DNA from: Puniceicoccaceae bacterium
Lineage (GTDB): Bacteria > Verrucomicrobiota > Verrucomicrobiia > Opitutales > JAFGAQ01
Assembly: GCA_028285755.1 (NCBI GenBank)
Contig: JANQOQ010000008.1
Span: forward strand, 319,399-383,398
DNA length: 64,000 bases
Direction: 5' to 3'
This document shows, one piece after another, positions 14,487 through 54,363 of the stretch. The notes beneath the pieces were generated by a model. That model was not told where the DNA came from. It made no database searches and worked only from the letters and a program-made list of their open reading frames with translations. Made by a program: the position numbers and the translations under genes. Position 1 is the stretch's first letter. Every line of letters begins with the position of its first letter.

Positions 14487-14539
14487 AGCGGAAAGAACAA
14501 TAAGGTTACTAATCAGCCTTGAGACTGACGCATTCCGCT

Positions 14540-15100
14540 ATGAATGGCAATGATATTAATATTGTGGAAAGTAACAAACTGCTTAACAATATGATTATGA
14601 TTAGGTTAAGAACGTTCTCTTATCGTTTTGCTGAACAAGTTCTGAATTCACGTTTATCAATTAAGCAAGAAATTGAAGAAGTTCTTACTGATCCTAAAAT
14701 AAAGGTAAATGAGTTAACTAGACCTTATTTTAATAAGATTCTGGATGGATTATTTGTGACAAAAGGTTGGACTCCACAACCTCAAGTTTTTCCCGAGCCC
14801 AATGATCCTTCAGCAAAGATGGATTTTATAAAAGATAGGGTGGGTGTAGAGGTTGGTTTTGGGCATGGTTCATTTATAGGTATAGACCTCTTAAAATTTC
14901 AAGTATCGTCATATTCAGCTCTAGATCAGATAGATGTAGGTGTGTATATTGTAACCACAAAATCTTTCCAGAAGTACGTTACAAAGAATTATGATTTAAA
15001 ATGGGAAGGTAGTCTTACATATGAAAAAGTATCTAAATACCTTCCCCATTTTAAAAGTGCTATCCAAGTTCCTATATATTTAATAGGGATAGATATATAG
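14540..15100 (+). CDS. BglII/BstYI-like type II restriction endonuclease, orphan
   Basis: About 186 residues. The fold markers of BglII/BstYI enzymes are present: an N-terminal helix FSYRFAEQVLN followed by IKQEIEEVL, then the catalytic segment with D95, E104 and the strand VGVEVGFGHG, the DLLKFQ helix, IDVGVYIVTT and a C-terminal VPIYLIGID. In BglII the site is D-x9-E-x-Q; here the last position is glycine (E-V-G), which may reduce or abolish cleavage. No methyltransferase gene lies nearby. The gene is clearly more AT-rich than its neighbours, a sign of transfer. The start is uncertain: ATG 14540 or ATG 14591/14597; no good Shine-Dalgarno supports any of them. Confidence 0.65.
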   Translation: MNGNDINIVESNKLLNNMIMIRLRTFSYRFAEQVLNSRLSIKQEIEEVLTDPKIKVNELTRPYFNKILDGLFVTKGWTPQPQVFPEPNDPSAKMDFIKDRVGVEVGFGHGSFIGIDLLKFQVSSYSALDQIDVGVYIVTTKSFQKYVTKNYDLKWEGSLTYEKVSKYLPHFKSAIQVPIYLIGIDI

Positions 15101-16205: not shown

Positions 16206-17585
16206 ATGAAAGATACCTATATCCTACGGGCGGTCGGAGCACTTATTTTAATCGCGGCCTTAATCTTTATATTGAACAATCGGGAAACTGCGGTGGCAGA
16301 ACAAATTGCTGTCGTGGAGAAAACGCCTGAGCAGCTGCAAGCCGATGCGATGCTCACTCAGTTTAATCTGGGCTTGGAGCAGCAGCGTGCGGATGCACTG
16401 GTCGGGGCTTTGCCGGTTGAGGAAGTACTCGGCTCGTTAGCGCCGATCGCACTCTCCCCGTTTTTCGCGCTGACCTGTTTATCGGGGGTCTCACTGCTCG
16501 GGAGTACGGGCATTTTACCTGATGGTATCGCTAATAATTATATCATGGGTGCAGATAGCCCACTCAATAATGAGGCGGTTTTCTTTGGCATGCTGATTCT
16601 GACTTTACTGACCGCTGCGCCGAAACTTACCAAAGTGAGTAAGCCCTTTGCGGAGGCAGTAGATATTGTTGAGGCATATTCAGGAATCGTTGCTGCAGTT
16701 GCAGTACAATTTCTATATGGTCTGAACCTGGAGCCGACTGTTGAGCCTACCCAGGTGGCAATTATCTATGAGGCCGGATTTTTCAGTGGGGTTATCAATA
16801 CCGGTTGGACGACACTCTTGATGGTTTTCTCCGTGATTAATATTTTTGTAATCAACACTGTTAAGTTTTTCTTCGAGGTGATGATCATGATCTCGCCGTT
16901 CCCGACGGTGGACGCGATCTTTGAAGCGGCGAACAAGGGATTTGCGGCATTCCTGGTGGGCCTCTATGTGTTCAGCCCCTGGGCGGCGACCTTCCTGAAC
17001 ATCCTGATGTTCCTGATTTCGCTGGTGATCTTTACCTGGGCATATCGCCGGGTAGTATTCATGCGTAGCGTATTGGGGGATCCATTGTTCGGATGGTTGG
17101 CGGAAAGCCTGTTCTTCCAAAAGCCAGTTACCATTACCTCGAAGCGGCTTGCGAGTTCGCTGGAAGACGAATTGCCGAACCCAACGCTGGTCATCAAGGC
17201 ATTTGCCACGCGCCGCTCAAAAGGAATTAAGCGCAAGTCCAAGGGTTATCTCGTGAAGTCGGAGGGCAATACCTACTTTGTGCGCTACCGCTTCCTGCAA
17301 AAGCCGATTGTGAAGCAGCTCGCAATGGAGGGCATACGCCCTGAGATTGGTGGCGGCTTATTGGCTCATCATGTGCACTTCGTGAATTCCGTAGGGGACG
17401 ATGCAGAGAAATTTTATATTACCAAACGCTATAACCGCATCCTCACGGATATTCAGCGCGAGCTTGGGAACAATGCAACGCTTAAGGTTGTGGAAGATGA
17501 CGGCAACATCCCCGGCATCAACAGGAGCTTCGGCAAGAACCTCAAGTCTGCCAGTAAAGAGGATCTTCAGGCGGAATTTGCTTGA
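16206..17585 (+). CDS. Polytopic membrane protein of unknown function
   Basis: 459 residues. A helix at about 8-24 anchors the N-terminus; after a polar stretch to about residue 75 come several more helices (ALSPFFALTCLSGVSL, FFGMLILTLLTAA, then helices between about 155 and 290), followed by a C-terminal cytosolic domain of roughly 170 residues with a basic start (FATRRSKGIKRKSKGYLVK). The membrane part is faintly reminiscent of DUF4126 proteins, but I cannot assign it. Unlike most genes here it has a strong Shine-Dalgarno (GGGGGGA, 7 bases before the ATG), which suggests high expression. Confidence 0.75.
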   Translation: MKDTYILRAVGALILIAALIFILNNRETAVAEQIAVVEKTPEQLQADAMLTQFNLGLEQQRADALVGALPVEEVLGSLAPIALSPFFALTCLSGVSLLGSTGILPDGIANNYIMGADSPLNNEAVFFGMLILTLLTAAPKLTKVSKPFAEAVDIVEAYSGIVAAVAVQFLYGLNLEPTVEPTQVAIIYEAGFFSGVINTGWTTLLMVFSVINIFVINTVKFFFEVMIMISPFPTVDAIFEAANKGFAAFLVGLYVFSPWAATFLNILMFLISLVIFTWAYRRVVFMRSVLGDPLFGWLAESLFFQKPVTITSKRLASSLEDELPNPTLVIKAFATRRSKGIKRKSKGYLVKSEGNTYFVRYRFLQKPIVKQLAMEGIRPEIGGGLLAHHVHFVNSVGDDAEKFYITKRYNRILTDIQRELGNNATLKVVEDDGNIPGINRSFGKNLKSASKEDLQAEFA

Positions 17586-21227: not shown

Positions 21228-24200
21228 ATGCCCAAACAGTTAATTTACACGAGCTCTCCTAATGGCTTAGAATCAGGACGTTCCGGATTTCAGATTGTTG
21301 CACAACATCATGGAATCAATCAACGGCTCCTGAGCCGACTGGAAAAGGAAAGCGTGTATGAGGTAGATGCCCTTAAATGGGGGAGCCCAACAGTTTCCAA
21401 GTTTTTTAAGATATCCCAGCAGGAGGAAGAGCATTATGTAGTGTCTAAACTACAGCCCTGTGGGGTTGACTTTACCGGGAGGCCCAACCATATCGCTCAC
21501 CATGTATTGTTTCAACCTGAAGAGCTGCCCCAATGCCCGCCTGCTGCCTTACACTTATTATGGAAGGGGTGGCGGAATAAGTGGGAGAACCGCCCGCGCT
21601 ATCTCGGGAACTGGGACCGTATCAATTACGAGGATCCGGAGCATCCCTTTTATTACCGGGAGTTTGCGATTCCTGCGAAGTTCTGGGATGAGCTGAGCGG
21701 GGATGCGGGAAATGCGGCGCTGCCGCTTGAATGGGAGACTGCTACGGTGTATCCCGTCCCGAAAGGCAACGAGGAAAAGTTGCTACGTCTCTTTTTTGAA
21801 AGTCAGGCGATTATACCACTATCGGAAGCTTGGGAAATTCCGTACATTGATTATCTGACGGATAGTGACAATCCACACCAGTATCAATGGATTGGTTATC
21901 CGGTGAGTGAAGATGGAGGAAAATCACCCCTCGGCAAGGATAGCAATGTTCTGGATTTATTTGGGGGTGAGGCGGCGCTTATGGCGCCTGCGAATGATTT
22001 GGCAGATATTGCCCGAGGCAAACGGACCAATGATGTAAGCCCGCCCGCCCATTTATTGCCCGTTGAGGACGAACCGAAGCAAACGGTTTCCTTAACGCCG
22101 ATCGATGAACCTGAATATCAGCAGGATGAACTCGGCTTACAGGCAGATGATTCGAAGGTTGATGAGTCGGTACCTGAAGATGTCGTCGAAACTACTGAAG
22201 ATGAGAAGGTATTCATCGATTTTGTTGAAACGCATCAGGAACCGGAAGGTGACAACACTGAGGATACCGACTTAGCCAGCTCGGAGGCGCATGACTCCAT
22301 CGAGTCCTTTATGAGTGGGGGTGAGCCGATATCCACCGAAAAGATAGAATTGCCGGATTTTAATCTGCATGAAGATGAAGAGGAACCGGAAGAGCGGCGT
22401 TCGCTGGTGAAGCCCATCCTCATTATCGGTTCCATTCTGGTGGCAGCCGGACTTATTTTCCTGCTCGTGCTTTTCTTCCCGTTCATTATTACCTGGATCA
22501 ACCAGTTGCAGGATCCATATGAAGCCGAGATTAGTGAAACAATGACTGAGGAAGCCGGAGTGGCTGACAGTATTGGAGCGATCGAAGAGCGACTTCAGAA
22601 TATAGACTATATTCTTGAAAGCGGACAGTTTCTGCTGGCCAGATCTTATCTAAGGAATCCTGAAAATCAGGCTAGCTCGGAGGCTGAAGAATACCAGCGA
22701 TTGAATCAATGGTATACGGAGCAGCAGGAGACACTAAGGGATGTGAATCGTGCGATCGATAGGCTTCAAAATCGCATTAACCGCAATGAACTCATTGATG
22801 AGTTTGAAAGTGATATCAATGAATTACGTGCCAGAAATGAGCAATTAGCCAGTGATTTGCAACCTACGGTTGCTTTATCCTTGGAGAATCTCGTCAATCA
22901 ATATGAAGCGCTCAATCTTCAGTATCGTTTGAAGCTGCCGAATGAGCCTGTTTTTCTGGTGATGTTGAATCCTGGTCAGCGAAGTCAAAATCTGGAGTAT
23001 ATCCAGATTTCTTCTGAAATTATCGAATGGGTAACGGCACTCGAGGGTCTAAGCCTTACCAGCTCGCTGGATAATATTGAGATCATGATTGCTCCGTATC
23101 AGAGTTTGAACCGTTTTGAATTGAATCCGGACAGCGGAAATAATTTGACGCTCTGGAAGAAGAGTAATGACAGCCTGGTAATCTATATTGAAAATAATTT
23201 TGAGCTCCTTGAGTTTAATCTGGATCGAGCGAATGCTACGGCGAATCTTTTGTGGATGTATGATGCGGACAACCAGGGGCTGAACACGGTATTGCCTGAT
23301 CCTCCGTTGATTCTGGCGCTTACAAATACGCTTACGCAGCAGGCTGTATACATGATTGTATCGAATCTGGATAATAGCCAGTTCATTACGTCGGAGACCG
23401 TGACCCGAGACTTTTTGGGTTATGATTTAAATAACCTCTCTTTTAGCATAAATGACCCGGTGCTGTCTCAAAAAATATCCAAGCTGGCATTGTCGGACAA
23501 TCATTTCCTTAAGCTCAGGTCAGAGAATGAGATTTATCAGTTTGCCTGGGATGCGAACACGGAGGCGTTTCATTTATTTGAAACCCGAAGCAGTGAGTCC
23601 GTCGAGGTCAAGCGGCTACAGAATGAGCTTGCAATGGCATTTGAGGAGCTCGCTGAGTATGATTCAATCCGGCAAGACATCTTGGCATTGAATTTCATGA
23701 GTCAAACGCCCTTGTGGACCTTAGGGGGTGAAGTGTTTGATCGATTACAACCTCCGACTGATTTGCTGGAGTTTAAGGCATTTCGCCTGCGGGACGATGC
23801 AAACTATGCGGACTATTTATCGGAATTGTTGCGGGTATTTGCCGCCGAATATACGGTGGTGCAGCCCCAAATACTGGAGGATTGGATATCGGGTGATACG
23901 GTTAATCTGGAAACCCCGGGTCGATCCGCTGAGGACGTACGCAATACATTGATCCGTACGTCGAAACGTTTTAGGACACTGCTTCGCGATGATTCTCCTC
24001 AGACAATTGAAAGCTGGAGGCATTTTATTACTACTTATGAATTTTGGCTTTTGGGAGAGTATACCAATGAGTTATTGGATATACTGGAGCTTAGTGGTGA
24101 GGATATTCGCAGAGCAGAGACGGGGTCTCTTGAATCCCTGGAAAGTAGTATTGATCAGGTAAATTCTCAAATCCAGCAACTGCAGAAGTCCCTTGAGACT

Positions 24201-24302
24201 GAAAAGGATCTCAGTGAGATCGACCAATCGAATCGCTGGGTATTGGAAATAACGAGCCTGGATAGCCCGTCTTACAGATTTCCCTTAATCCTTTTTGAAT
24301 GA
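21228..24302 (+). CDS. Large single-pass membrane protein with N-terminal GAP1-N2-like domain
   Basis: 1024 residues. Residues about 3-130 match what I know of the GAP1-N2 domain (GTPase-associated protein 1): QLIYTSSPNGLESGRSGFQIVA, a VVSKLQPCGVDFTGRPNHIAHH core and a following ELPQCPPAAL. An acidic, low-complexity linker (about 285-390) leads to one transmembrane helix (about 396-420, PILIIGSILVAAGLIFLLVL). After it come coiled-coil-prone helices (about 445-545, e.g. ERLQNIDYILESG, RLQNRINRNELIDEF) and a C-terminal region of about 450 residues with no domain I recognise. Topology by the positive-inside rule: N-terminus cytosolic, C-terminus periplasmic. It overlaps the next gene by 4 bases (ATGA). 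GAP1-N2 proteins are known from GTPase-centred conflict systems, but a soluble setting is usual; this membrane form is odd. Confidence 0.75.
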   Translation: MPKQLIYTSSPNGLESGRSGFQIVAQHHGINQRLLSRLEKESVYEVDALKWGSPTVSKFFKISQQEEEHYVVSKLQPCGVDFTGRPNHIAHHVLFQPEELPQCPPAALHLLWKGWRNKWENRPRYLGNWDRINYEDPEHPFYYREFAIPAKFWDELSGDAGNAALPLEWETATVYPVPKGNEEKLLRLFFESQAIIPLSEAWEIPYIDYLTDSDNPHQYQWIGYPVSEDGGKSPLGKDSNVLDLFGGEAALMAPANDLADIARGKRTNDVSPPAHLLPVEDEPKQTVSLTPIDEPEYQQDELGLQADDSKVDESVPEDVVETTEDEKVFIDFVETHQEPEGDNTEDTDLASSEAHDSIESFMSGGEPISTEKIELPDFNLHEDEEEPEERRSLVKPILIIGSILVAAGLIFLLVLFFPFIITWINQLQDPYEAEISETMTEEAGVADSIGAIEERLQNIDYILESGQFLLARSYLRNPENQASSEAEEYQRLNQWYTEQQETLRDVNRAIDRLQNRINRNELIDEFESDINELRARNEQLASDLQPTVALSLENLVNQYEALNLQYRLKLPNEPVFLVMLNPGQRSQNLEYIQISSEIIEWVTALEGLSLTSSLDNIEIMIAPYQSLNRFELNPDSGNNLTLWKKSNDSLVIYIENNFELLEFNLDRANATANLLWMYDADNQGLNTVLPDPPLILALTNTLTQQAVYMIVSNLDNSQFITSETVTRDFLGYDLNNLSFSINDPVLSQKISKLALSDNHFLKLRSENEIYQFAWDANTEAFHLFETRSSESVEVKRLQNELAMAFEELAEYDSIRQDILALNFMSQTPLWTLGGEVFDRLQPPTDLLEFKAFRLRDDANYADYLSELLRVFAAEYTVVQPQILEDWISGDTVNLETPGRSAEDVRNTLIRTSKRFRTLLRDDSPQTIESWRHFITTYEFWLLGEYTNELLDILELSGEDIRRAETGSLESLESSIDQVNSQIQQLQKSLETEKDLSEIDQSNRWVLEITSLDSPSYRFPLILFE

Positions 24303-27300
24303 CGCAGAACACTAAAGCGCTTATACTCAAAATCGTCCGCATATTGGATAATCGGGATGCAGATGGCCAGGCAGAGCTTCTCGCTGAGCAATATGTGGGT
24401 GCCTGCACACGTGTCAATGAGCGGTTAGAGCACTTTATTTCCCAGTTAAATGCGGGGCATTATTACGCAGCGATTGAAGTGGCTCAGGTGGTGCCCTCGC
24501 TCAATCAGCAGCTGGATGGCATCCGTTTCCCGCGTGAAAGTGAGTGGAATCAATATTGCGAACGAGCAGGCTATAGAACCTTCGATGGGTTTAATACTGA
24601 GCATTTGCGGAAATTCAAAGAAGTGACCGCTGATATGGATGCGGGGCAACCTGAAGAATACCGGGAATACCGTAAATCGATCATTTTAAAGGATGATAAG
24701 GCAGCGCTTAATGCGCTTAGGGAGCTCAACCGTAATCACCCTTCGGATAAAACAGCCTACAATGAGCTTACCACACTCGAAAGTCGTGAATTTGCCCGTA
24801 TTGAGAAAGGTTTGGAAAATCTCCTGGCCCAAGGAGATGAGAAAGCGATCGTTAAGCAGGTAAAACTGGTTAAGGCAGAGTCATGGGTAATACCCATGGA
24901 ATCTACACTTTGGCAGCAGAGTGAGGATATTTACAATAAGCATACCCTAAATCAGAAAACCGAGCTAATTGACAGCCTCTTGCAGCAGCTGACCGTGATC
25001 CGGCGTTTGGGTAGCTGGCGGGATGCCAGTAAATTGATAAAAAATCTGGAGCAGCTGAAGGGTTCCTCCGAATATAAATCTCAGCCCACGGAAATTCAAG
25101 CGACCGTGCAGGATAATATCGACTGGTATTACACCCAGTCGGAGCAATCCCAGCCGCGTGCGGAAGACCCGGGGAAGGCACTGGCTGCCGCATTTGCAAA
25201 AAAGCTGGATCGAAGCAGCCTGGAGAAAAAAGTGAAACAGGCTGATAGTGAGGCGCTTCGTCAAATGCAGTCTGAGCTCAAGCATGATTGGGATGAATTG
25301 GGGCGCAAAAGCCCTGAGTCAGCGACTAAGCTCGAATTGGAATATCGGGATGCTCAACAACTGCTCGCTTCCAAGCGAAAAAGCAAAGTTAAGAAGAAAC
25401 GAAAACCACTGGAAAAGGAGCTTCAGAAGAGCACAAATCCGTGGATTTTGCCGCTTATTGCACTATTAATGCTTTCAGCTTCTTTGCTCATTTTTATACA
25501 TCAGCGAGAAGGTTCGATCGCCTCTGAAGTCGATCTTTTGTATTCTGCTAACAAGATTGAGAGTACGCGAAAAGCTCTGGTTAAGTGGGATCGTTTCACA
25601 TTTTCCTTCTTTAGCCGCTATAATCCGTTTCGCAATCATCGTGCGAATGAAGCTGTGGAAAATATTCGATTGTGGATTGTAGACTTAGACACACGAAATG
25701 AGCGGATCCATCAATTCCTGGATGAAATCCGAACATCTATAGAACAACCCTTGAGTATCGCTGAGATTAATCGACTCAGGACGAATCTGGAGACTGCGGA
25801 GCTGCTTGCAGGTGAAGTCCCGGCTGAATGGAAAGTAGAGTTTTCCAGGCAAATCCCTGAGCTAGAAAGTAAACTGGATCGTGCCTTCAACGAAGGTTTT
25901 GCTAAGATCCGTAACGAAATAGAGGCTGAAATTGCTGAAATCAGAAGCATAGTAGACGAGCGTCTCGCTTTTGATCAAGTGAAGATACCTGTAAATATTG
26001 AGGGCACTTTGAATGCCCTAAAGTCCCGGGTAGACGATTTAAAACCCAAGTTGTTGGCGTGGCGGGATAATGAAGGACTCGCCGACCAAATGGAGGCTCT
26101 AGGAATTCTGGAGGCTCATATTGAGCGTTTTCATGAGGGAGTTGACGGATTCGAGAATTTAAGCCTGTCGCTCAATGAGAGTTTATCGCTGGATGAGTAT
26201 TTGGATAATATTGAACAGTTGCATGAAAATCCACTGGTTGCTCAACCCACTGTGATAGCATCGAATGAAATCCATACGCATGCCAACCAGTTAAGAAATC
26301 TGCAGCAAAGTTTACTGATGCCTAATAACGAATTGGCGTGGAGAGAATTCATCCGTAATCTTGATCGACCACTGGTACCCGCTGACTCAGATGCCAAGGA
26401 ACTTGCGGCTTTTCGTGCCTGGGTGAATCATGCCTGGTTGGGCGATATTCATCAATATCAGGTAGTCAATTATCGTAATGGACAGAAAGTGGATGATGGG
26501 GAGATGATCTACACGTTTGGGCAGATCGAGGTGGAATCCCGCGGGAACGGGGCACAGGTGTTGCTCATTCAAAATGCCCGGATATTTGCGGATAATCGGG
26601 TAGGTACCGACACTCCTTTTAATGATACCATCTTTGAGTGTATGACTGCAAGCTCAGGTGCACCCATAAATGGTGTCTTTCTTGTCTATCAGCGGATTAC
26701 GCCGGAGTCCTCTTTTTACCAGCAACTGCCAGTGTTAAGTGGATTTGAGGAAAGCTCAGAGCGGATTACCATACCTCTGCTTGAAGTGCTGGATATCATC
26801 AGGGAAGACCGATTTATTCATCCTCTGTTCAAGGCGTATCTAACTCAGGGATTGATCCAGGTGATGATTGTTCGGGCCTATGACTGGGGTTTAAATTTTT
26901 CACCGGATGCGCAAATTGATTATAAAATATTGATGGATATTCAGTCCCGCTTCTTTCCGTATGATTGGCTGAGACCCTCCATACGCAACCAATATACGCA
27001 GGCGCTCGTTAACTTTTATGATCGACGCCAATCGTGGACGTATATGGAACAGGCCATTGCCGGTCGTGAATTGTTTAAGGTGCTCGAAGATCAGCGGATA
27101 CGATATGCCGGTTATATTGATTTGGACGGGTTGCCGTTTATTATTAAGAACACCCCTCAGGATCGAAAGCTATTTGGCCTGAACGAAAAAGGCGAAGTGG
27201 TGACTTTGCGCAATTTTGATGAGGAGAATGGTCGCAACGATTGGATTGAGGACGGCATGCGGCTGACACCGTTGCTCTATTTTAATGATCGACCCGAATT

Positions 27301-27385
27301 AATTTTGCAACGGGTAGGCAGAAACTCCGGAGTGGATGTATTATCCGAGGAATATAAGCGTTATCTACCTCCGATCTTTTTATAG
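24299..27385 (+). CDS. Large single-pass membrane protein, partner of the GAP1-N2-like protein
   Basis: 1028 residues, unrecognised family. Residues 1-350 are cytosolic and mostly helical, with repeated 40-70 residue blocks (for example LEHFISQLNAGHYYAAIEVAQ, LLQQLTVIRRLGSWRDASK). A strongly basic stretch (about 355-378, KRKSKVKKKRKPLEKE) precedes one transmembrane helix (about 381-401). The periplasmic part has long coiled-coil segments (about 430-640) and a C-terminal domain (about 700-1028) rich in aromatic residues, with YEMIYTFGQIEV-like strands. Length, helix position and topology mirror the upstream gene, and the ATGA overlap means the two are made together. They are probably subunits of one envelope-spanning complex. 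No enzyme motif was found. Confidence 0.7.
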   Translation: MTQNTKALILKIVRILDNRDADGQAELLAEQYVGACTRVNERLEHFISQLNAGHYYAAIEVAQVVPSLNQQLDGIRFPRESEWNQYCERAGYRTFDGFNTEHLRKFKEVTADMDAGQPEEYREYRKSIILKDDKAALNALRELNRNHPSDKTAYNELTTLESREFARIEKGLENLLAQGDEKAIVKQVKLVKAESWVIPMESTLWQQSEDIYNKHTLNQKTELIDSLLQQLTVIRRLGSWRDASKLIKNLEQLKGSSEYKSQPTEIQATVQDNIDWYYTQSEQSQPRAEDPGKALAAAFAKKLDRSSLEKKVKQADSEALRQMQSELKHDWDELGRKSPESATKLELEYRDAQQLLASKRKSKVKKKRKPLEKELQKSTNPWILPLIALLMLSASLLIFIHQREGSIASEVDLLYSANKIESTRKALVKWDRFTFSFFSRYNPFRNHRANEAVENIRLWIVDLDTRNERIHQFLDEIRTSIEQPLSIAEINRLRTNLETAELLAGEVPAEWKVEFSRQIPELESKLDRAFNEGFAKIRNEIEAEIAEIRSIVDERLAFDQVKIPVNIEGTLNALKSRVDDLKPKLLAWRDNEGLADQMEALGILEAHIERFHEGVDGFENLSLSLNESLSLDEYLDNIEQLHENPLVAQPTVIASNEIHTHANQLRNLQQSLLMPNNELAWREFIRNLDRPLVPADSDAKELAAFRAWVNHAWLGDIHQYQVVNYRNGQKVDDGEMIYTFGQIEVESRGNGAQVLLIQNARIFADNRVGTDTPFNDTIFECMTASSGAPINGVFLVYQRITPESSFYQQLPVLSGFEESSERITIPLLEVLDIIREDRFIHPLFKAYLTQGLIQVMIVRAYDWGLNFSPDAQIDYKILMDIQSRFFPYDWLRPSIRNQYTQALVNFYDRRQSWTYMEQAIAGRELFKVLEDQRIRYAGYIDLDGLPFIIKNTPQDRKLFGLNEKGEVVTLRNFDEENGRNDWIEDGMRLTPLLYFNDRPELILQRVGRNSGVDVLSEEYKRYLPPIFL

Positions 27386-28322: not shown

Positions 28323-29234
28323 TCATAACTCGCTGAGCCCAAAAACGGCACGGGAGTAGTCTTCGCGGTCAAAGGGTTTCAGGTCTTCGGGCTTTTCACC
28401 AAGGCCCACGTAGTAAACCGGTTTTTGCAATTCACGATAGATGGCCACGATAGCACCTCCCTTTGAAGTGCCATCGAGTTTGGTGACGATGAGGCCTGAG
28501 AGTGGAAAGCTATCGTTGAAGACTCTTGCTTGCTGAATGGAGTTGGAGCCTATGCTGCCATCTACAACAAGCCAGCTGCTGTGGGGGGCTTCGGAATCCT
28601 GCTTGGCGAGCACGCGCTTAATTTTGGCGAGCTCATCCATGAGGTTGCTTTTGGTATGGAGCCTGCCTGCTGTATCGATGATGAGGTAGTCTGCATTTCG
28701 TGCCCTTGCGGCTGCGTAGGCATCATAAGCTACTGCCGCGGCATCGGCGCCCTGTTGGCTGGCGATCAATGGGAGACCCAGGCGATCACACCATTCTTTC
28801 AGTTGCTCATTTGCAGCAGCGCGAAAGGTATCTGCCGCAGCGATGAGCACCGAGTGACCGGTATCCTGCAAATGTTTGCCGAGTTTGGCGCAGGAAGTGG
28901 TTTTTCCGGAGCCATTCACGCCGATCATGCAGATGACGTGGGGCTGATGCTCCCCTTTTTTCAATTGCCCCTCGGAGCCTTCAAGTTGACGGATCAGGAC
29001 TTCAGCACCGATTTCTCCGGCAGACTTTTCACGGAAGGATTTGTCTTTTTTGTAAGCTGAGCGAATGGTATCGATAACTTCCTCGGTAGTTTCAACGCCA
29101 AAGTCAGCGGTGTAGAGCATCTCCTCAAGCTCCTCAATACTGTCCTCATCCAGCTGAGCCTGACCAAATATCGTGGCGACGCGGTCTGCGGTTTTGGAAA
29201 ACCCTTTTTTAAAGAAGCCAAAAAAATTACTCAT
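28323..29234 (-). CDS. ftsY: Signal recognition particle receptor FtsY
   Basis: SRP GTPase receptor that docks ribosome-SRP complexes at the membrane. 303 residues: a short N domain without the acidic A domain, so it is the compact form. GTPase motifs: GVNGSGKTT at 105-113, DTAGR at 187-191 and TKLDG at 251-255. The usual DATTGQN loop reads VDGSIGSN here (224-231), a variation that should still bind GTP. It is 4 bases after nusB in a ribBA-like/ribH/nusB/ftsY cluster. Confidence 0.95.
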   Translation of the reverse strand: MSNFFGFFKKGFSKTADRVATIFGQAQLDEDSIEELEEMLYTADFGVETTEEVIDTIRSAYKKDKSFREKSAGEIGAEVLIRQLEGSEGQLKKGEHQPHVICMIGVNGSGKTTSCAKLGKHLQDTGHSVLIAAADTFRAAANEQLKEWCDRLGLPLIASQQGADAAAVAYDAYAAARARNADYLIIDTAGRLHTKSNLMDELAKIKRVLAKQDSEAPHSSWLVVDGSIGSNSIQQARVFNDSFPLSGLIVTKLDGTSKGGAIVAIYRELQKPVYYVGLGEKPEDLKPFDREDYSRAVFGLSEL

Positions 29235-42712: not shown

Positions 42713-45331
42713 ATGAATGCTCTAACATCACCCAATCGGGGGGTGTGGCTGAAGTTGATTACATGCTTAACTGCCACATCCTCAATTATTTATATAACGA
42801 ATCGTTCTTTGGCTCAATCGGAACGTATTTATGAGCTCGAGGCCTTTATAGCGGAGGAATCCGCAAGCTATATTCAGGGAGACTTCGACCCGACTTCCCG
42901 CACTGTGAATGGCCTGTTTAACGAATCGATGGACATTCTGGAAATTCCGCGTTCGGTTACTCTACTCACGCCCAAGCACCTGGAGTATTTGCAAATCGAT
43001 AACCTGCGTGCGCTCTCACGCTTCGGAGCAGGAACGCAGCTCATCAACCACTATGGGGTGACCGGAACTCCTATTATTCGGGGTGCCAAAGGGGCTACTC
43101 TATTGAACGGTATGGTGCGCTCCTTTAATTTGAATGAGATGCCACTTTCACTTGGCTCGACCGAAGCCCTGGATATCGTCAAAGGCCCCACTCCTCCTCA
43201 TTTTTCACCGACGCATGTAGGCGGCTTCGTTAATTTGATCCCGAAATCTCCCTTTTTTGACAAAAGCCGGGGAGCCATCGATTTAGTTATTGGGGATTAT
43301 GGGCTCTACCGGGGTACTTTTGACTATGGCGGGCCAATCCTGTTGGGGGATATTCCCAGTGCCTATCGCGTATCGGTTACGGTAAACCGGGAGGAGGGTT
43401 ACTATGACCGGGTGAAGAATGACTATGAATCCCTCTACTTTAGCGTGAAGTCCAAATTGGGTGATACTCTAAGATTGTTTGCCGGTTCTGAATTTTTTCA
43501 TTTCAATAGTAACGAAAACGCGGGCTGGAATCGCCCTACTCAGCAACTGATTGATGAGGGGCTCTATATTATAGGCGAGCCCATCAATATCACTGATCCC
43601 GGTTTTTCAAATACGGGTAATCGCGACTTGGCCTCTTTCCCGTTTGGCTTCGGATTTGCGAATGGGATTGAAGATTTTAATGCACTGGTAGTGCCCACAG
43701 AAATTGTGGATCGGGCGGTTCAAATGCGGCAGATTACCGCTGAAGCCAGAAATGCGATGCTCAATCTGCAGCATCCGGATGACCTAGCACGTGCCTATGG
43801 GCAACCACTCCCGAGCACCGGAATTACGGATCCGCGCTATTCTGCGGATCCCGCCGTTCGTGATACCTTGGCACGGTTGATGGCAAATCCCAATTCAGGC
43901 TATCGCTACACCCGGGAGTATTTTGATGCGGGAGGGATTGTTTTTACCACGCCCCTTTCAGCGAACCAGGTTTTGGCGGATGAGAATGATAAATCCGAAG
44001 CCTATAACTGGGTCGGCTTTATGGATTTGAACTGGATATCCAGCTCTAATTTGTTCTGGGAAAATAAGTTACTGGTCGATATTCTGACTACCGAGAAGCT
44101 TTCTTCCTACGGTTATGCAATCGAGACGGATCAATGGGTATTTGCGGATAATTTCCAAGGTTCACGGGATATCGCCTGGGGTGAGAAGACTTCGCTCTCC
44201 TTTGGGTTAAGCACGCGATACACTTTTGCGGAAATGCGTCAGGACTACTTTGCTGAGCCATTCTCACGTCGCGACATCAGTCTGCCTACCATCAGCCAAA
44301 ACTCCAAAATCCTCGCCGGTCCGCAAACCGGTCCGGATGGTCTGAATTACTGGTCGCCTGATATTGGCGCGAATGTCCGTTCTCATCTTTTTCAGTTGGG
44401 CACCTTCAGCCAACTCCAGTCACAGATCACCGAATCGCTGAGTGTTATCCTCTCGGCTCGCGTAGAGCGTGCCTGGTATAATGCGCAATTACCGGATGGA
44501 GTGGATCGCACAGACGATGCTTTCCGCCAATCACTGGACAATGAGGGCGATCGGGATCTTTACAGCCTCGGTGCCTACACAACTTATACGCTCTTTGATG
44601 GTTTTAATCTCTATGCGGCTGCCCAACAGAGCACTACGGTCGACCTTACTCAGGGCGGTGGCGTATTTGGTGAAGATAACTTTGCGGATGCAGAGCTTCT
44701 CGAAACCGGATTCAAAACGGCTCTGCTTGATGACCGACTTAAACTCACACTATCCGCATGGCAATGGGAGCAAAGCCGCTTCAACGACCGGGATGCCCAG
44801 TCCGAACCGCTTGAAGGTGAAGGCGTTGAGGCAGAGATGGCATTCACGTTACTTCCGGATAGCCTGTATTTGATCGCATCCGCTGAAAATCAACAGGTGC
44901 GCCGCAAAATAGGGTTAGGCTTTCGCGCACTCCCCCTTGATGAGCAGGGTTGGGCACTCAATGGAGGTGTCCTTAATGGGGGAGTGGATGCCTTTCCCGA
45001 AAATAATCCGGAGCTTTACTACCCCGGTTTCCCGGAGTCTACCGTCAAAGTCCATTTGATTTGGGATAGTAATCCCTGGTCCACGGCACTCAGCATGGTT
45101 TACAGTGAGGCTTACTGGCTCAACTTTGAGCGCACGCTGCGGCTTCCCGAGTCAACCCTATGGAATGCGAGAATTTCATACGCAAAAGATACCTGGAAAA
45201 TCAGTCTCAACTTTGAAAACCTGACAAACGAGGATTATTTTCTTGGAGCAGACCCGCTTTTTGCATCGAATACTTTGGTCACTAAAGGAGAACCCACTCG
45301 CGTTTCCCTCCAATTCAGAAAGTCATTTTAA
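42713..45331 (+). CDS. TonB-dependent outer-membrane receptor
   Basis: 872 residues. After a signal region (about 15-36, ending SLAQ) the mature N-terminus reads IYELEAFIAEE, a TonB-box-like stretch of the kind I know from Opitutae receptors. The plug domain follows (IPRSVTLLTPKHLEYL, TPIIRGAKGATLLNGM, LDIVKGPTPPHFS, GGFVNLIPKSP), then a 22-strand-type barrel ending TRVSLQFRKSF with a terminal aromatic residue. The plug lacks a strong siderophore-specific mark. It follows the ABC importer operon on the same strand across the MITE-like element, so it may serve the same substrate. Confidence 0.92.
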   Translation: MNALTSPNRGVWLKLITCLTATSSIIYITNRSLAQSERIYELEAFIAEESASYIQGDFDPTSRTVNGLFNESMDILEIPRSVTLLTPKHLEYLQIDNLRALSRFGAGTQLINHYGVTGTPIIRGAKGATLLNGMVRSFNLNEMPLSLGSTEALDIVKGPTPPHFSPTHVGGFVNLIPKSPFFDKSRGAIDLVIGDYGLYRGTFDYGGPILLGDIPSAYRVSVTVNREEGYYDRVKNDYESLYFSVKSKLGDTLRLFAGSEFFHFNSNENAGWNRPTQQLIDEGLYIIGEPINITDPGFSNTGNRDLASFPFGFGFANGIEDFNALVVPTEIVDRAVQMRQITAEARNAMLNLQHPDDLARAYGQPLPSTGITDPRYSADPAVRDTLARLMANPNSGYRYTREYFDAGGIVFTTPLSANQVLADENDKSEAYNWVGFMDLNWISSSNLFWENKLLVDILTTEKLSSYGYAIETDQWVFADNFQGSRDIAWGEKTSLSFGLSTRYTFAEMRQDYFAEPFSRRDISLPTISQNSKILAGPQTGPDGLNYWSPDIGANVRSHLFQLGTFSQLQSQITESLSVILSARVERAWYNAQLPDGVDRTDDAFRQSLDNEGDRDLYSLGAYTTYTLFDGFNLYAAAQQSTTVDLTQGGGVFGEDNFADAELLETGFKTALLDDRLKLTLSAWQWEQSRFNDRDAQSEPLEGEGVEAEMAFTLLPDSLYLIASAENQQVRRKIGLGFRALPLDEQGWALNGGVLNGGVDAFPENNPELYYPGFPESTVKVHLIWDSNPWSTALSMVYSEAYWLNFERTLRLPESTLWNARISYAKDTWKISLNFENLTNEDYFLGADPLFASNTLVTKGEPTRVSLQFRKSF

Positions 45332-52239: not shown

Positions 52240-54363
52240 TCAGCTTCCATTTAGAACGGGCGGGTAAGTTTCTAATGGTGCTTGAGTATGTTCGTTGAGT
52301 TGAATGATTTTGAAAATCAAAGATTCAACTGATTGAGGGACAATCAGGTATCCCCAGTTCCATCTATCCTGAGTGGCTCTGGGCTTTACCCTTATGAGGG
52401 TTTGTCCGGTAAGTGCATTGGCTAATTCTATACGATAAGCGTCACTTTCTGCACCTGTGTGGTAAAGAAAGTAGAGAATATCATCATTATTAGCATCTTC
52501 AAAATAATATTCAATGGAGGGCTGTGTATCATCTATTTTTATTGGGTTCTTTCCGTGATTGAGACTGTTTGGAGGAGCGGGTATATCGATTGCCCAAGCC
52601 GAATTTTCATCAAAAAACTGAATATAGGGTTTGGGCATAGTCTCTAAAAATACCGAGGTTCCATTTTCAATTGCATATAAACGGAAGCTGGCATCGTAGC
52701 CCGTCTGATTCCGGCTATTGCCGCGGTAATAACCAATTTGCCGATCTTTTTGACTACTATCGACATGAAAGAGTTCAACGTAACCGGTTACACGATCTGT
52801 ATCTCCGGCTATAATCAGTTTTTTAGGTAATGAGTTCGAACGAGCTGTTTCTAAACTCAACTGAATCGCTACCCCATCTTCAAAGAACTCACCATACGGA
52901 AGGGTGGGTTGTAGCTGGTAATATGCTGATTTGTATTTCGGCTCTATGCTTTCTTGTTCAAATAAGTGATCAATGGGTTTTCCCAACCATTGATAAGCAT
53001 CACTCGAGTAAACTGAGATACCTGCATTTTTGAACTGCGTTAGCTTTTCCTGTATAAATGCACCCGGCCTAGGGTGGAGGATGCTTATGTTTACAATATC
53101 CAGTGTACCGGTCGTTACTGCAGGTGTAATCGATTTTCTTAAATCTACTTCTCCTTTAATCCATTTATAGTAATCCCCAGACATTACCCACATATTGGTC
53201 GATATGAGCAAAAGAATAGTGCTTGCCATAGTGCTGCGGATGAAGCGAAAGGACTTCCGGGTAGTGGAGCCAGACCAAAGCAAAACGCATAAACATATCC
53301 ATAACAATAATGAGGCACTGGTATAACGGCTTGAAAATGCTATGAAATCTCCATGGGAGTGTCTTGCGTATGCAATCAGGAGTTGGCTACCAAACAGAAA
53401 AACCAGAATTAAAGGAATCGGGCTATGCAATGACTTCCTGAAAATCCCGGTTACAGCAAGCATTGCAAAGATAAAACCTATAATAATCCCTAACGAACCG
53501 ATTAATCTACATACCCAAACCGGTAAGAACTGAAAGCAATTACCGATAATCTCAGTAAACGTTATGAGAACACCTAGCCAATCGATTTCCCTGGGCTGGT
53601 TATGTTCAAAGAAAGTATAGCCGGTGAAATAAATACCATAAAGCAGTGCCGTCATTATTATGATATTTAGTCTCAGAGTAACCGATGTTTGGGCCATCCA
53701 GGTAATGGCAATCGCCAATAGAGGGTATAATAATCCATGCCCCGTTGAAAATACAGCAATACAGAGACTAAGATAGAAAACTCCGTAATCCCATCGTGAG
53801 TGACCTTCGCAAAAAACCAGCTTCCAAAGCGACACACTGGCTAAAATCACACTTAGATACAAGCTATACCAGGATATCCCCCATGCATATTGCTGGGATT
53901 CTATTTGCATGAGTGCGAGAGCAGCGATTAATGCCAATGCAATTCTGCGGTATCTAGGTATCTGTAGTGTTTCGCTCGTTTGGGACAAGAGATAATAAAC
54001 GGAACCTCCATAACCAAGGATCACTAAGGCCTGAACCACTAAGCGAAATACATATTGAGCCTCAAAAAAGTGAATGTCCAGCATGAGGATAAGATTTGTG
54101 GTCACATGGCGATGCTCATTGTTTTGGAATAGCAAACCGTCCCAGAGTGCGCTCCAGGAAAATTCTTTCATGTACAAATTGCCGACCCAGCCCCACAAAT
54201 CCTGCTGAGGTAGCAGAGTGTATAGCTCAAACTGGCTATAGAAAAAATAAATCAAGGCGTAGAAAGAGCTCAACAAAAGGGTGATATCGAAAATCCAAAC
54301 GAACGAACTAGTTCGTTTCCGCAAAAGAGGATATACTGACGCACTTAAGGCCTTTTCGGTCAT
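52240..54363 (-). CDS. Large polytopic membrane protein, GT-C-like, unknown
   Basis: 707 residues. About nine to eleven helices occupy residues 20-400. The first periplasmic loop carries DLWGWVGNLYMKEFSW and FQNNEHRHVTTNL, a position where GT-C glycosyltransferases and polysaccharide membrane proteins have acidic and histidine residues. The C-terminal 300 residues are extracytoplasmic, beta-rich, with paired tyrosines and a GYYRGNSRNQTGYD segment. No family is assigned. It is convergent with the FAD oxidoreductase gene (12-bp gap). Base composition is more AT-rich than the flanking housekeeping genes. Confidence 0.7.
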   Translation of the reverse strand: MTEKALSASVYPLLRKRTSSFVWIFDITLLLSSFYALIYFFYSQFELYTLLPQQDLWGWVGNLYMKEFSWSALWDGLLFQNNEHRHVTTNLILMLDIHFFEAQYVFRLVVQALVILGYGGSVYYLLSQTSETLQIPRYRRIALALIAALALMQIESQQYAWGISWYSLYLSVILASVSLWKLVFCEGHSRWDYGVFYLSLCIAVFSTGHGLLYPLLAIAITWMAQTSVTLRLNIIIMTALLYGIYFTGYTFFEHNQPREIDWLGVLITFTEIIGNCFQFLPVWVCRLIGSLGIIIGFIFAMLAVTGIFRKSLHSPIPLILVFLFGSQLLIAYARHSHGDFIAFSSRYTSASLLLWICLCVLLWSGSTTRKSFRFIRSTMASTILLLISTNMWVMSGDYYKWIKGEVDLRKSITPAVTTGTLDIVNISILHPRPGAFIQEKLTQFKNAGISVYSSDAYQWLGKPIDHLFEQESIEPKYKSAYYQLQPTLPYGEFFEDGVAIQLSLETARSNSLPKKLIIAGDTDRVTGYVELFHVDSSQKDRQIGYYRGNSRNQTGYDASFRLYAIENGTSVFLETMPKPYIQFFDENSAWAIDIPAPPNSLNHGKNPIKIDDTQPSIEYYFEDANNDDILYFLYHTGAESDAYRIELANALTGQTLIRVKPRATQDRWNWGYLIVPQSVESLIFKIIQLNEHTQAPLETYPPVLNGS

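Follow-up and report, generated by a model that had tools for sequence, protein, structure and literature searches.

Systems that pair a DO-GTPase with a GAP1 protein are so far predictions from genomics. The only literature on GAP1-N2 found in the open library searched is a genomics study from 2020, in which Burroughs et al. reported membrane-fused GAP1-N2 proteins as well as planctomycete GAP1-N2 systems with GYF proteins fused to a trypsin domain or to a TM-rich region (PMC7159879). Here we describe a two-gene locus of this kind in a Puniceicoccaceae bacterium (genome G000, order Opitutales), located in a stretch of 64,000 nucleotides (C2:319399-383398), which is referred to as the window.

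Two ORFs on the plus strand, at 21228..24302 and 24299..27385, were confirmed as originally predicted. They encode P0001, a GAP1-N2 membrane protein of 1024 aa, and P0002, a second membrane protein of 1028 aa, and they overlap by 4 bp (ATGA). Where this operon begins, no specific signal emerged from a scan for promoters and terminators. The original prediction had recognized a GAP1-N2 domain at the start of P0001 from conserved motifs. When the GAP1-N2, GAP1-M and GAP1-C models were applied to the protein, only GAP1-N2 was recovered: PF20013 matches residues 3-125 (21234..21602, plus strand; AF2 pLDDT ~90) with E 7.1e-19 and 68.7 bits, above the cut-off of 24, and the motifs at residues 7-21 and 79-92 are conserved across relatives. 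According to a genome-wide search this is the only GAP1-N2 domain of the genome. PF20014 (GAP1-M) gave no match to P0001 in the profile search, and none was obtained for GAP1-C with Pfam at E up to 1. However, AF2 and the PF20014 matches of relatives point to a divergent GAP1-M-like region at residues ~131-265 (21618..22022, plus strand), which forms a single confident AF2 unit with GAP1-N2 (residues 1-268, pLDDT ~90). PF20014 matches 9 of 34 P0001 relatives (best E 3.8e-5), and a whole-genome GAP1-M search, which returned sub-threshold matches only, placed one at the same position of the protein in G002. Because GAP1-M can be recognized in these 9 of 34 relatives, an N2-M core appears to be common to canonical GAP1 and the relatives of P0001.

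Where GAP1-C would stand, P0001 has a linker, a membrane helix and a large C-terminal region. The acidic linker (residues 266-393; 22023..22406, plus strand) is predicted to be disordered (pLDDT ~30), with D+E amounting to 33% over residues 266-390. The transmembrane helix at residues ~395-427 (22410..22508, plus strand), whose fusion to GAP1-N2 had been noticed before, is supported by an AF2 helix, hydropathy and a positive-inside flank. The remaining part (residues 428-1024; 22509..24299, plus strand) is predicted to be periplasmic and mostly helical at low to moderate AF2 confidence, and between genera it is 30-33% identical. A tblastn search of residues 1-261 against plasmids gave no match.

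For P0002 the AF2 prediction is good (mean pLDDT 84.7). Residues 1-380 (24299..25438, plus strand) form a predicted cytosolic TPR-like helical region with TPR/BamD-like matches, in which residues 1-160 are best conserved. A hydrophobic segment following a basic KKKRK flank marks a transmembrane helix at residues ~383-403 (25445..25507, plus strand); relatives show the same helix by hydropathy, and in the AF2 model it lies inside a low-confidence segment followed by long helices. The C-terminal helical/beta domain (residues 691-1028; 26369..27382, plus strand; pLDDT ~92) is predicted to be periplasmic and is 34-40% identical between genera. A fold search with P0002 found no specific relative, only generic helical/TPR matches such as BamD (Z 8.3), 14-3-3 and STAT, which barely covered the C-terminal domain. 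An fn3 domain was found neither in P0002 nor among the matches listed for its relatives. Since basic residues lie on the N-terminal flank of each membrane helix, an N-in/C-out topology is predicted for both proteins. P0002 is a new component of the core: it has no family model and was not described before.

We then consider the distribution of the genes. A locus survey with one genome per species yielded 80 loci. In 61 of the 73 loci that could be assessed, a GTPase gene is the immediate upstream neighbor of GAP1; a P0002 homologue comes immediately after GAP1 in 55 of 62. The original prediction regarded GAP1 proteins as usually soluble and the membrane fusion as a new architecture; neither view can be kept, given the fusions reported in 2020 and the membrane helix that is predicted for 73 of the 74 assessable GAP1-N2 homologues. 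Among 223 genomes of the order, with one weak partial GTPase match excluded from the count, 57 carry the GTPase, 61 GAP1 and 51 a P0002 homologue. All 51 genomes with a P0002 homologue also carry the other two genes (Fisher p < 1e-39), and pairwise distances correlate strongly among the three proteins (Mantel r of 0.96-0.97, 54 loci). Shared ancestry inflates both of these values and could by itself give rise to the correlation. GAP1 occurs alone in one genus (G040, G054, G102, G155, G213), GTPase and GAP1 occur without a P0002 call in G006, G034, G038, G064 and G110, and G197 has kept all three genes on separate contigs, with unrelated genes flanking GTPase and GAP1. All three genes are kept by each of the five genomes of the family to which G000 belongs. 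The partner gene therefore co-occurs with GAP1 and its homologues are not always alone, so that the two-gene unit first proposed is real; a chance association of the two genes was set aside in view of the adjacency and co-occurrence counts. Judged from these sequence comparisons, P0001 and P0002 supply two parts of the three-part core of an Opitutales GTPase system, whose genes make up a single operon in most families.

That the window contains no GTPase, as had been stated, is true for the cognate type, although the FtsY encoded at 28323-29234 is itself a GTPase. The notion of a system without a GTPase was not borne out: G000 contains a DO-GTPase homologue, the single match genome-wide, of a type encoded directly upstream of GAP1 in most relatives. 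Its full ORF spans C2:270933-272789 (matched segment C2:271572-272729) and lies 67.8 kb upstream of the GAP1 start, 46.6 kb beyond the window. The protein is 48% identical to the operon GTPase of G022 (E 7.6e-111) and has kept the P-loop GAPGSGKSN and a DNAGEHF motif, both conserved among relatives. All 12 sequences in the GTPase alignment are matched by PF19993 (DO-GTPase2), the best with 1.9e-7; the protein of G000 itself scores 26.6 bits, just under the 27-bit cut-off, which some relatives exceed. In nine genomes from other Opitutales families a P-loop protein matching DO-GTPase2, mostly of 400-600 residues and split into two ORFs in G034, is located immediately upstream of GAP1. The search for neighboring GTPases thus succeeded in relatives but not at the locus of G000, nor at that of G001-G004, where the GTPase is likewise absent. 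The zinc-ribbon cysteines differ as well: no CxxC precedes the P-loop in the GTPases of G000, G002, G003 and G004, and at least two do so in each GTPase of other families in which the P-loop pattern was found. It is a new finding that in this family the GTPase left the GAP1 operon and lost its zinc-ribbon cysteines, and for both reasons its contact with GAP1 may have changed. The gene is now part of a tight operon, behind those for a FabF-like ketosynthase and a GT4 glycosyltransferase (L058:6560-10790 on C2 of G000), and the order is the same in family relatives whose contig extends that far.

In about half of the loci a further gene follows the P0002 homologue. The fourth protein consists in several cases of a GYF or GYF-like N-terminal region and variable membrane parts (RDD, ABC-2 transporter, or a TM2 domain in L111); a trypsin-like gene is present in L111 as well. 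No fourth gene and no effector, GYF/TM-rich, trypsin or MotA/ExbB-like gene was found at the window locus; the one GYF_2 gene of G000 is located away from it. In some families a MotA/ExbB-like gene with weak similarity to ZorA is found together with single-TM proteins beside the GTPase-GAP1-P0002 genes (L039:15906-18921, L047:8441-11643, L098:14188-17350, L111:17076-20485), and one single-TM protein of L111 carries a trypsin domain. In three families (L041, L042, L044) a divergent sigma-factor gene, of the ECF type in L042 according to Pfam, and a gene for a small one-TM protein are located upstream of the GTPase; these conserved proteins could possibly regulate the GTPase operon. A gene pair for a DUF2868 protein and a DUF3482/MMR_HSR1 GTPase follows the P0002 homologue of G003 after ~15 bp (L037:9688-12647), and G038 encodes a giant GAP1 fusion with GAP1-N2 at its start (L046:3-11636), whose open frame comprises at least 3878 aa (13583 aa by another count). 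Within the window we further noted a BglII-type restriction endonuclease gene at 14519-15100 (plus strand; PF09195, E 1.1e-45), a 459-aa membrane protein without Pfam match at E 0.01 (16206-17585, plus strand), and two large proteins (872 aa at 42713-45331, plus strand, and 707 aa at 52240-54363, minus strand) to which no Pfam model matched at E 1e-5.

The predicted fold of GAP1-N2/M provides a lead to its function. The top Foldseek match of P0001 is TagF (9t0n, E 1.7e-4; 255 alignment columns at 13% identity), the runner-up having a value of 0.17. With a second structural aligner the matches were DENND10 (Z 7.3, 4.0 Å over 203 residues), DENND1A and DENND1B with Rab35 (6.9), TagF (6.3), a roadblock-longin protein (6.2), and FLCN-FNIP2 and GATOR1 (4-5.5), where Z 4-7 is a middling range by the aligner's own scale; Lst4, KICSTOR and TRAPP were also among the matches. 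For residues 1-140 most structural matches belong to the longin/DENN/TagF group. Known members of the longin/DENN fold class regulate GTPases. Profile searches gave no sequence match of GAP1-N2/M to TagF or longin proteins, and PDB sequence searches with family profiles gave coiled-coil or chance matches only. A TagF_N search in 289 genomes of the phylum was uninformative, since neither the search nor its control gave a match. Longin, DENN and TagF are nowhere mentioned in the 2020 paper (PMC7159879). The modeled fold thus resembles longin/DENN GTPase regulators and TagF. As a tentative extension, which we consider possible though rather doubtful, GAP1-N2/M might be a longin/DENN-type regulator of GTPases in bacteria, with TagF as a distant relative, that forms, with the DO-GTPase and P0002, a resident trans-envelope signalling machine of Opitutales, a bacterial analogue of the longin-GTPase modules that are familiar chiefly from eukaryotes and Asgard archaea.

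Conservation differs strongly between the parts of the system. Between genera of the family of G000 the G domain of the GTPase is 67-75% identical, next to 64-71% for MetF, FtsY and RibBA. Within P0001, conservation is highest in GAP1-N2 (48-59%), and the regions past the membrane helix of P0001 and P0002 reach 23-40%; linker and C-terminal parts taken together evolve fast, at 19-40% identity. The GTPase-GAP1-P0002 system is present in single copy. In G000 and G002 the P0001-P0002 pair stands between ispH, which it follows directly, and metF, and metF-ftsY-nusB adjoins it in G000, G002 and G004, which makes this a syntenic housekeeping locus. PADLOC gave no match for the P0001-P0002 system.

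We consider it probable that P0001 and P0002 belong, with the GTPase as third member, to the core of an Opitutales GAP1-N2-type DO-GTPase system that would act in resident envelope surveillance. The GTPase would be a cytosolic switch, read by P0001 and P0002 from the inner membrane, and their periplasmic domains would serve as sensors or scaffolds. The cytosolic, longin/DENN-like GAP1-N2/M would bind and control the GTPase, or be read by it, and the cytosolic TPR-like part of P0002 would scaffold the complex. The large periplasmic C-terminal domains of both proteins would sense the state of the envelope or cell wall, so that a change outside would shift the state of the GTPase inside the cell; in many relatives this state may be passed on to the product of the fourth, GYF/TM-rich or trypsin-like gene. 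Stable, single-copy vertical inheritance favors such a resident switch over a mobile anti-phage cassette. A conflict system directed against phages or other invaders, whose periplasmic domains sense the invader and whose GTPase triggers membrane-damaging effectors, was proposed in 2020 at the family level for all GAP1 systems (PMC7159879). The effector-like GYF/TM and trypsin genes of relatives would suit this proposal, as would the fast evolution of the linker and C-terminal parts in comparison to MetF, FtsY and RibBA. We nevertheless regard it as unlikely for this locus, which is fixed by metF-ftsY-nusB and its place after ispH, occurs in single copy without an effector gene or a PADLOC match, and belongs to a GTPase evolving at housekeeping speed. 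A conserved switch at a stable locus, with outer parts that evolve fast, would suit a resident envelope sensor no less than a defence cassette.

The relocation of the GTPase invites a different explanation, namely that in the family of G000 the pair was freed from GTPase control and became a structural membrane complex, while the GTPase took another job with the ketosynthase-glycosyltransferase operon. The new operon, the lost zinc ribbon and the genomes with solo GAP1 are in line with this, but all five family genomes keep the three genes, GAP1-N2 is still the most conserved part of P0001, and G197 retains the complete set though scattered; we judge such a separation quite improbable. Least credible, with a very small chance of being correct, is that the TagF-like fold marks a remnant or a component of a type VI secretion apparatus. 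TagF is indeed the top Foldseek match, and P0001 and P0002 resemble TssM in having a single membrane pass and a large C-terminal domain. On the other hand, neither G000 nor seven relatives have TssB/VipA, with a positive control, profile searches gave no sequence match to TagF, and the searches made with P0002, in which the C-terminal domain was barely covered, gave no match to TssM. A type VI relic was set aside on the basis of the missing VipA/TssB in the eight genomes.

The analysis describes a compact version of the DO-GTPase/GAP1 systems with three genes, defines its third component and suggests, as a structural hypothesis, how GAP1 and the GTPase come into contact. Because natural genomes exist in which the GTPase is located outside the operon and all parts are kept, the functional link is testable. 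They also serve as a warning that the absence of a nearby GTPase gene does not mean that the genome is without one. Compared with TagF, a T6SS regulator, P0001 shares a likeness in its best Foldseek match, but the identity is 13%, no profile matches, and G000 and seven relatives have no T6SS. DENN/longin regulators (DENND1/10, FLCN-FNIP, GATOR1) resemble GAP1-N2/M in predicted fold (Z 4-7.3) and in having a GTPase partner; they are, however, eukaryotic Rab/Rag regulators without sequence match, and a GEF or GAP activity of GAP1-N2/M is only putative. The closest systems are the GAP1-N2 systems of 2020 (PMC7159879), already known in verrucomicrobiae. The locus shares with them the GAP1-N2 domain, a DO-GTPase2-type partner and the fusion of GAP1 to C-terminal membrane helices; its relatives further share a divergent GAP1-M, and related operons hold GYF plus TM-rich/trypsin genes. 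It differs from them in that no GAP1-C is detectable and no FNIII component was found in the operon genes scanned, in the GTPase of the G000 family, which is encoded in trans and lacks the zinc-ribbon cysteines, and in its third core gene, which encodes a 1000-residue TPR-TM protein of the P0002 family.
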